Assembly: GCF_000196655.1 (NCBI RefSeq)
Contig: NC_014253.1
Coordinates: 1,939,423-2,003,422, forward strand
Direction of reading: 5' to 3'
Length of the DNA stretch: 64,000 bases
DNA from: Methanohalobium evestigatum Z-7303
GTDB lineage: Archaea > Halobacteriota > Methanosarcinia > Methanosarcinales > Methanosarcinaceae
Shown piece by piece: positions 52,440 through 54,517 of this stretch (the stretch's first letter is position 1; the number at the start of each line of letters is the position of its first letter). Position numbers and translations under genes: made by a program. The notes below the pieces were generated by a model. It worked only from the letters and a program-made list of their open reading frames with translations. It searched no databases and was not told the origin of the DNA.

Positions 52440-53681
52440 ATGCAAATCAATGCCGACCTCCACCTGCATTCTAAATATTCAATGGCTACTTCTCAAAAAA
52501 TGAATTTACCGACAATGGCAGAGGAGGCAGGCAAGAAAGGAATCAACCTTGTTGGTACAGGTGACTGCACTCATCCCAAATGGCTGCAGGAGATTAAAAA
52601 AGCCTCATCAGACGATGAGAGCATCCAGATTAACGATACCCATTTTTTGCTTACAACCGAAATCGAGGATAAAAATCGAGTTCACCATGTATTGATTCTT
52701 CCATCAATATCAAAGGCTGAAGAACTTGCCGAAATCATCAGCAAACATGGCGACATTGAATCAGACGGAAGACCTTCCGTCAGAATGGATGGATGTGATA
52801 TCGCTCAAGCCGCAAGAGATACAGGTGCATTAATCGGCCCATCTCATGCATTCACTCCATGGACTGCCATCTATGCTGCTCATGATTCACTTGAAGACTG
52901 TTATGGTGACATGACCGATTACATATCCTTTGTGGAACTGGGATTAAGCGCGGATAGTGATTATGCGGACAGAATTAAGGAACTGCACAGACTTACCTTT
53001 CTTACCAATTCTGACGCTCATTCCCCCTGGTCGAACAAGCTTGCCAGAGAATTTACACGGTTTGAAGTACCCGATATTAATTTTGAAGGAATCGAGAAAG
53101 CCATATTAAGAAAAGAGGGTTATAATGCCACACTCAATGTTGGTTTCTTCCCACAGGAAGGTAAATACAACGAATCCGCCTGTGTAAGCTCCAAATGTTT
53201 GAATCACTATACTTATGAGAAAGCAAGTTCATTAAACTGGAAGTGTCCATGCGGTGGCAGAATTAAAAAGGGTGTATATGACAGGGTAAATGAACTTGCC
53301 GATTTTGATAACCCCCAACATCCAGACTACAGGCCGGAATACATCCACCTCATACCGCTTGCAGAAATCATTATGAAGGCACTGGGTCACTCCAGCATCA
53401 ATACAAAAGGCGTGACCAGAGCCTGGAATACATTGGTTAAAGAATTTGGTAGTGAAATAGCAGTCCTTGTGGATGCAGAACTTGAAGCTCTTGACGTGGA
53501 TGAAAGAATCATCGATGCCATTGTTGCATTCAGGAATGGGGATGTTATACTTCACCCCGGTGGTGGAGGACAATACGGATGGATTGAACTACCAGAAAAA
53601 ACGGTTAGCAAATCACAATCCAGACCCGTTTCAGAAAATAAATCCAGTCCAAAAGGTCAGAGTTCACTTCTGGATTATTAA
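52440..53681 (+). CDS. endoQ: Endonuclease Q (PHP-family DNA repair nuclease)
   Basis: 413 aa. PHP-fold metal sites: DLHLHSKYS (residues 6-14), GTGDCTHP, GPSHAFTPW and TNSDAHSPW. A Cys-rich zinc region (CVSSKCLNH...CPCGG) and a C-terminal domain follow. EndoQ cuts 5' of deaminated bases (hypoxanthine, uracil) and abasic sites. The last residues, QSSLLDY, fit the PCNA-binding box QxxLxxY, and EndoQ is known to work with PCNA. Ribosome site AAAGGAGC. Last gene before the tRNA. Confidence 0.9.
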   Translation: MQINADLHLHSKYSMATSQKMNLPTMAEEAGKKGINLVGTGDCTHPKWLQEIKKASSDDESIQINDTHFLLTTEIEDKNRVHHVLILPSISKAEELAEIISKHGDIESDGRPSVRMDGCDIAQAARDTGALIGPSHAFTPWTAIYAAHDSLEDCYGDMTDYISFVELGLSADSDYADRIKELHRLTFLTNSDAHSPWSNKLAREFTRFEVPDINFEGIEKAILRKEGYNATLNVGFFPQEGKYNESACVSSKCLNHYTYEKASSLNWKCPCGGRIKKGVYDRVNELADFDNPQHPDYRPEYIHLIPLAEIIMKALGHSSINTKGVTRAWNTLVKEFGSEIAVLVDAELEALDVDERIIDAIVAFRNGDVILHPGGGGQYGWIELPEKTVSKSQSRPVSENKSSPKGQSSLLDY

Positions 53682-53753
53682 TTCTCGATACTTATATAAT
53701 GGATAAAAACGTTGTAAATCAGTTACCTGAAAATGAACAAATTCAATAACTGT

Positions 53754-53877
53754 GCCGGGGTGGCAGAGCGGACAAATCCAACGGAGTAACAATATATCTG
53801 CTGTGGAGTCTATACGCGGCAGGCTCGAGACCTGTTGTCCCTTTTGGGACTCCTGGGTTCGAATCCCAGCCCCGGCG
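53754..53877 (+). tRNA. tRNA-Ser(CGA), interrupted by a ~37-nt insertion in the D arm
   Basis: Acceptor stem GCCGGGG (53754-53760) pairs with CCCCGGC (53870-53876), with discriminator G. Anticodon arm GCAGG-CTCGAGA-CCTGT (53819-53835), anticodon CGA at 53826-53828. The long variable arm (GTCCC-TTTT-GGGAC) is typical of tRNA-Ser. T arm CTGGG-TTCGAAT-CCCAG. The D arm begins normally (GCAGAGCGG, 53763-53771), but about 37 extra bases separate it from the anticodon stem. Pairings GCG/CGC, GAC/GTC and TCCA/TGGA, with AAA and TATA bulges, form a bulge-helix-bulge-like structure. Mature length would be 86-88 nt. Confidence 0.88.
53776..53812 (+). other. Probable D-arm tRNA intron (boundaries approximate)
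   Basis: A 37-nt insertion whose ends fit cleavage inside the AAA bulge (53774-53776) and the TAT bulge (53811-53813). Removing it leaves D stem GCAG/ACGC with an A-C pair at 12-23. Alternative boundaries 53778-53815 give a better-paired stem (TGC) but fit the bulge-helix-bulge less well. Confidence 0.55.
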
Positions 53878-53968: not shown

Positions 53969-54517
53969 TTATTTTCTACCTTCTATTCTGATGCTTGCAA
54001 CTTTATCAACAAGGTTTTTTACATCATCATAACTTAAATTAAAATCATTCATCACCTTTTTTTGTTCCTGCTCAGGAATTATTGCATCTATAACATCAAA
54101 TGGGATTTCTGATTCGTCTATCTGCCATACTTCACTGAATCCAGTATTCATTATTATATCCAGATAATGTCTTTTTAATATTGCACCCGAGATACAACCC
54201 ACATAAGCCTGAACAGAATCCTTTATCTTTTCAGGTATTTCCTCTAAAAGAACAATATCTGACACCATGAATTTTCCGTCTGGTTTCAACACTCGGTAAA
54301 TCTCATTAAACACATTCTCTTTTTCAGGTGAAAGGTTACAATCTATTAATTCCAGACAGATGGGACATACTGACTTTGAATTTTCTATGGTTTCGTTATT
54401 TTCAAATATACCTTTTAGATTTAGTCTGTCCTCCCCCATTAATACTACCAAAATATACCTTTGAATAAGGTAAATACTGTATCTATTAATTAATATATCA
54501 AACTGCTTGTTGTCCAA
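53969..54517 (-). pseudogene. Truncated arsenite methyltransferase (ArsM) remnant
   Basis: The C-terminal half resembles ArsM: NLSPEKENVFNEIYRVLKPDG, FMVSDIVLLEEIPE, YVGCISGAILKRHYLDIIM. The first ~150 residues, including the SAM-binding Rossmann motif and early arsenic cysteines, are missing. The ~60 N-terminal residues of the open frame do not look like a SAM-binding domain. No remaining half is seen upstream, where the NOP2/Sun gene begins 40 bp away. Most likely a deletion-derived fragment. Expression is possible but catalysis is not. Confidence 0.7.

Follow-up and report, generated by a model that had tools for sequence, protein, structure and literature searches.

The single tRNA-Ser(CGA) gene of Methanohalobium evestigatum Z-7303 is interrupted by 38 nt in its D arm. 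We consider it about 95% probable that this is a functional tRNA gene with a non-canonical archaeal intron of the bulge-helix-bulge (BHB) type at position 21/22, spliced by an alpha'2-type EndA endonuclease and the RtcB ligase. The intron is real, old, and of a known kind, and the gene is not broken, because the same intron has been inherited through most of the class. Positions refer to the window, that is, the whole 64,000-nt stretch of DNA that was analysed (contig NC_014253.1, 1,939,423 to 2,003,422, forward strand).

The gene occupies 53754-53877 on the forward strand, between a 413-aa frame that ends at 53681 and a convergent frame at 54517-53969. Its sequence, strand, and ends are as originally predicted, with G1 as the first base and the discriminator G73 as the last. 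The cloverleaf is complete, with the acceptor stem GCCGGGG/CCCCGGC and the anticodon loop CU-CGA-GA, which is uninterrupted, as had been claimed; the 38 extra nt part the D loop from the 3' strand of the D stem, and CCA is not encoded after G73.

Table 1. Features of the tRNA-Ser(CGA) locus (window positions; ^ marks the predicted cut)
Feature	Position	Strand	Sequence	Content or basis
TATA-box-like element	53692..53699	+	TTATATAA	About 55-60 nt upstream of tRNA-Ser(CGA); putative promoter
5' exon	53754..53775	+	GCCGGGGUGGCAGAGCGGACAA	Acceptor 5' strand, U8, G9, G10-G13, D loop to A21
Central BHB helix, 5' strand	53770..53773	+	GGAC (G18 G19 A20 C20a)	RNAalifold; paired in 54/54 introns; structure count
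5' splice-site bulge	53774..53776	+	AA^A (most relatives YAA)	RNAalifold; predicted cut, third bulge nt being the first intron base
Intron, 38 nt, position 21/22	53776..53813	+	AUCCAACGGAGUAACAAUAUAUCUGCUGUGGAGUCUAU	Removal gives the architecture of the intronless orthologs
Intron-side helix, 5' strand	53777..53779	+	UCC	RNAalifold; pairing counts; covaries with 53805-53807 in Methanothrix-type genes
Intron-side helix, 3' strand	53805..53807	+	GGA	RNAalifold; pairing counts
Central BHB helix, 3' strand	53808..53811	+	GUCU (relatives GUCY/GUUC)	RNAalifold; 54-intron count; structure count
3' splice site	53812..53814	+	AU^A (most relatives AWA)	Opens into the D-arm loop; RNAalifold; predicted cut
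3' exon	53814..53877	+		A22 C23 G24 C25 G26, anticodon arm with CGA, variable arm, T arm, acceptor 3' strand, G73

Nearby, the 182-aa frame at 53969-54517 on the reverse strand matches PF13847, a methyltransferase domain, over its C-terminal part alone (profile positions 84-136 of 145) and is probably a truncated gene. An sR5-like Rfam match at 54005-54058 fell below threshold and was judged to be chance.

Standard tools handle this gene poorly. At default settings, ARAGORN leaves the window without a tRNA call, and the locus reaches 20.8 bits with the Rfam tRNA model, whose cut-off is 29. Once the 38 nt are removed, ARAGORN calls tRNA-Ser(cga), in keeping with the original reading of a D-arm intron. 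With introns allowed, the same program takes the unspliced gene for Asn(GTT) or Val(AAC), and such miscalls may mislead automatic anticodon censuses of intron-bearing genomes. Similarly, a tool that considers introns at 37/38 only could leave genomes of this class apparently without a tRNA-Ser(CGA); tRNAscan-SE 2.0 includes a non-canonical intron model (PMC8450103). As for a second Ser(CGA) gene, which figured in a refuting condition of the original prediction, none was found in the 2,406,232-base (2.406-Mb), 99.9%-complete genome, and the interrupted copy is the sole one.

The boundaries of the insert come from relatives that lack it. Intronless Ser(CGA) orthologs occur in two sister families, f4 (which we take to be ANME-2c) and f5 (presumably Methanoperedenaceae). 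Their genes read ...GCAGAGCGGACTAACGCGGCAGG... at this site and contain GGCAGAGCGGACTAACGCGGCAGGCTCGAG, in which GGACTA^ACGCGG corresponds to the predicted spliced product. Joining 53775 to 53814 yields GCAGAGCGGACAAACGCGGCAGG, which differs from the f4/f5 form solely at the variable base 20b; the boundaries are therefore fixed to 1 nt and the length is 38. The remaining 1-nt uncertainty in the end of the 5' exon, which we placed using the intronless orthologs and the rule that the cut falls between bulge bases 2 and 3, arises because there is an A at both ends. Canonical introns are cut after base 37, with the first two anticodon bases in the central helix (PMC4090602); the cut therefore follows the second bulge base, which here gives AA^A, AU^A, and position 21/22. 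With 38 nt removed, the stretch from G10 to C25 is 17 nt long, the length that it has in the intronless orthologs and in this genome's Ser(UGA), so that the insertion originally put at about 37 nt is there but is 1 nt longer.

When 25 tRNAs were aligned and folded with RNAalifold, the cloverleaf, the GGAC/GUCY helix, the YAA bulge, and the UCC/GGA helix were all recovered unaided, together with compensatory changes across many genera in the stems of the acceptor, anticodon, and variable arms. The central helix, GGAC/GUCY or GUUC, is paired in every one of 54 distinct introns: its outermost G faces U in 37 and C in 17, and the next G faces C in 50 and U in four. The intron-side helix likewise stays paired through changes on both sides. 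Its third pair is kept in 54/54 (shuffle mean 48.5, maximum 51) and its fourth in 31/53 (shuffle mean 16.3, maximum 23). In a count of the named structure over a diverse subset, 100% of cells are paired, against 21-50% for slid versions; two pairs show changes on both sides, and the covariation score was matched in one of 500 shuffles.

All relatives have three bases between the central and intron-side helices at the 5' splice site, that is, a 3-nt bulge. On the exon side, C or U23 follows AWA and the outer helix of a strict BHB does not close; what closure there is amounts to 2 bp (G10-C25 and C11-G24, or G15C16 with G24C25). Since this side is open after AWA, the motif as modelled is a relaxed BHB, closer to bulge-helix-loop. 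The insert lies at 21/22, not at the canonical 37/38, where the anticodon loop is intact. The original prediction was right to call the motif relaxed, but its 3-bp GAC/GUC centre gives way to the better supported 4-bp GGAC/GUCY helix. That shorter helix, with GCG/CGC as its outer part, is a possible alternative register, which we set aside in view of the fourth central pair, kept in 54/54 with a change between G-U and G-C. Please note that the BHB is not present in the minimum free energy structure of the single precursor: folded alone, it prefers another fold by 3.7 kcal/mol (-52.3 versus -48.6 with the BHB enforced) and gives the central helix a probability of about 0.01, and the precursors of several relatives behave alike.

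Genomes of the family (112), the order (186), and the class (156) were searched with a pattern that describes the anticodon loop and T arm of Ser(CGA). Within the Methanosarcinaceae, where a comparison had been proposed as a check, a same-site insert turned up in eight genera by this pattern and in a ninth (g2) by a separate one. A further pattern, for other serine tRNAs, matched almost only Ser(CGA). Same-site introns are found in Methanohalobium, Methanococcoides, Methanohalophilus, Methanolobus, Methanosalsum, and ANME-2. By rank, they extend over nine genera of the family, two more families of the order, of which one is named ANME-2, and, in the class, a second family that is Methanothrix-named. 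The 54 distinct versions range from 17 to 47 nt, with short ones of 17 and 23 nt in family f2. Because the same insert recurs at the same site in dozens of species, it is not a chance insertion, and the expectation that such introns would be rare in Methanosarcinales does not hold for the Ser(CGA) gene, where the intron is common across the class. In the Methanothrix-named family (f6), 14 of 33 genomes have the insert by exact-pattern search, and the remainder may just miss the pattern; the gene on a Methanothrix-named contig (L122) is nearly identical to one of the f6 genes (L275).

On an RpoB domain tree of 48 genomes, whose deep branches are weak, the intron is present in f1, f2, and f3 and absent from f4 and f5, with f6, which has it, outside. 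The most likely history is that the intron dates from the common ancestor of the class and was lost precisely in two families, with the gene replaced in one branch of the Methanosarcinaceae. In that branch (g4, g5, and g13, the last presumably Methanosarcina; L033-L038, L073-L075), Ser(CGA) is an unrelated intronless gene with the acceptor strand GCCCAGG and the D arm GUCUAGYGG, like that of Ser(GGA) in the Methanohalobium genome. We infer that the original gene was replaced here.

The alternative that survives best, though we hold it to be unlikely, is that several independent insertions struck one hot spot, so that the intron would still be an intron but not a single old one with losses. The RpoB tree does call for at least two to three changes of the intron label, and f4 and f5 are without it. 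Against this, the position, the bulges, and the GGAC/GUYY pairing are identical everywhere; two precise deletions and one replacement suffice, whereas independent gains would need the same site and the same motif each time.

Two further kinds of insert were seen in these genes. In f6 (L266-L278, L122), the T loop of tRNA-Ser(CGA) holds a conserved insert as well, about 30 nt long (GGGTTCAAAATGG...CAGGAAAATCCC) and bordered by UUC/GAA beside an intact T stem; it looks like another non-canonical intron within one and the same tRNA. In ANME-2 genomes (L125, L164, L264, L118), there are extra or interrupted copies of the intron-bearing gene whose anticodon stem or T arm contains an element of about 60 nt, TCGAAAATCG...CGATTTTCTTATCTTCGGCCTTCTC..., that resembles a small mobile or repeat element.

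It is important to consider the A12-C23 mismatch, which had been taken to mean that the splice sites differ or that C23 is edited to U. Neither need be invoked, and we regard both as very improbable. It is true that C23 is mismatched here and that the Watson-Crick state occurs naturally, with U23 in Ser(CGA) of ANME-2 and genus g11. Yet the mismatch does not stem from the choice of splice sites, because the intronless f4 and f5 orthologs have the same A12 and C23, and these serine tRNAs can do without a 12-23 pair, because the same-genome paralog Ser(UGA) has A12-A23. A cut after AAAU, which would make A12-U23, was ruled out: position 23 is C in the intronless orthologs as well, and it is in the 3' exon that C and U alternate. 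From these comparisons, A12-C23 appears to be a tolerated trait of the tRNA-Ser(CGA) lineage and not a sign of wrong splice sites.

The least credible alternative is that the insert is retained in a tRNA with a long D arm, or that the gene is a pseudogene which the cell can spare because Ser(UGA) could in principle read UCG by wobble. Standard finders do miss the gene, but its exons are conserved over many genera with compensatory stem changes, which is what a working tRNA would show; the helices at the splice sites stay paired although the insert ranges in length from 17 to 47 nt; and exact intronless forms exist in f4 and f5. Judging from the sequences, the intron is almost certainly spliced. 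In the precursor, G18-G19-A20-C20a would pair with the GUCU close to where the intron ends. The resulting 4-bp helix would have a strict 3-nt bulge on its intron side, and its exon side would leave the 3' splice site open. The alpha'2 endonuclease, presumably a homodimer, would then cut AA^A and AU^A, and RtcB would join A21 to A22. The predicted product is an 86-nt tRNA with the D arm of the intronless orthologs, A12-C23 included, save for base 20b. In this scheme the insertion, its boundaries, conservation, and covariation, and the set of enzymes are observed, whereas it is predicted that the gene is transcribed and that its RNA is cut at these sites, to within 1 nt, and ligated.

The genome encodes the enzymes that this requires. 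It has one splicing endonuclease, EndA, a 354-aa protein of the two-repeat alpha'2 type: PF01974 gives exactly two matches, both in that one frame, and a separate beta subunit is absent. All class genomes checked that have any PF01974 match likewise give two. Residues 26-341 of EndA, covering both repeats, align to the alpha'2 EndA of Archaeoglobus fulgidus (1r0v/2gjw; E 2.5e-35), the C-terminal repeat retains the region of the catalytic Y, H, and K, and the protein scores 611 bits against the NCBIfam equivalog NF006795. RtcB is present as well (613 bits).

Published accounts disagree over relaxed sites that lie elsewhere than at 37/38 and over whether alpha'2 enzymes cut them. Three hold these enzymes to strict motifs (PMC4090602, PMC4033280, PMC12397907), the last being a 2025 structure paper which argues for canonical ones alone. 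Homodimeric enzymes have been reported to cut bulge-helix-loop (PMC8707768, PMC6379350), and A. fulgidus EndA is reported to remove bulge-helix-loop introns at 37/38 in full-length pre-tRNA (PMC6379350). One review names Korarchaeum as the only alpha2-type archaeon with non-canonical introns (PMC4033280), and an earlier survey names only three thermophilic euryarchaeal methanogens with such introns (PMC3218864). The conserved intron described here suggests that alpha'2 enzymes accept relaxed motifs in nature. We lean towards the broader view that relaxed bulge-helix-loop introns in the D arm, and in Methanothrix-type genes also in the T loop of that tRNA, are routine substrates of euryarchaeal alpha'2 endonucleases in living cells, in which case the accepted link of non-canonical introns to heterotetrameric or specific-loop enzymes would fail for a whole class of methanogens.

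The kind of intron is known; what is of interest is the clade in which it occurs, the type of enzyme found with it, how deeply it is conserved, and that some relatives have two inserts. Reviews tie non-canonical introns to heterotetrameric or specific-loop endonucleases, and describe the Methanosarcinia clade and its enzyme type without them. A conserved D-arm intron in Methanosarcinia that have only an alpha'2-type EndA is thus a natural counterexample, testable in the culturable Methanolobus and Methanococcoides. In addition, one and the same tRNA occurs in this clade with the intron, precisely without it, with two inserts, and as a replaced gene, which makes the clade a useful record of intron loss. 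Our literature search found no report of a tRNA-Ser(CGA) D-arm intron; GtRNAdb and the main 2003-2008 surveys lay outside its scope, and prior annotation there is possible.

Among known systems, the closest likeness is to the non-canonical BHB, hBH, and HBh' introns of Crenarchaeota, Thaumarchaeota, Nanoarchaeota, and Korarchaeota, which share the short D-arm intron, the 4-bp central helix, the 3-nt bulge, and the variable intron loop; D-arm positions 20/21 and 22/23 are given in a review (PMC4090602). Unlike those, the host here belongs to the Methanosarcinia and has an alpha'2-type enzyme, presumably homodimeric. With the canonical 37/38 introns of euryarchaea, the Ser(CGA) intron shares the presumed EndA and RtcB and the logic of the central helix, but it sits at 21/22 and its exon side lacks the outer helix of the anticodon stem. 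Finally, the EndA of A. fulgidus (1r0v, 2gjw) has the same two-repeat single chain; that enzyme reportedly handles bulge-helix-loop at 37/38 (PMC6379350), whereas D-arm, and perhaps T-loop, substrates are predicted for the enzymes considered here.
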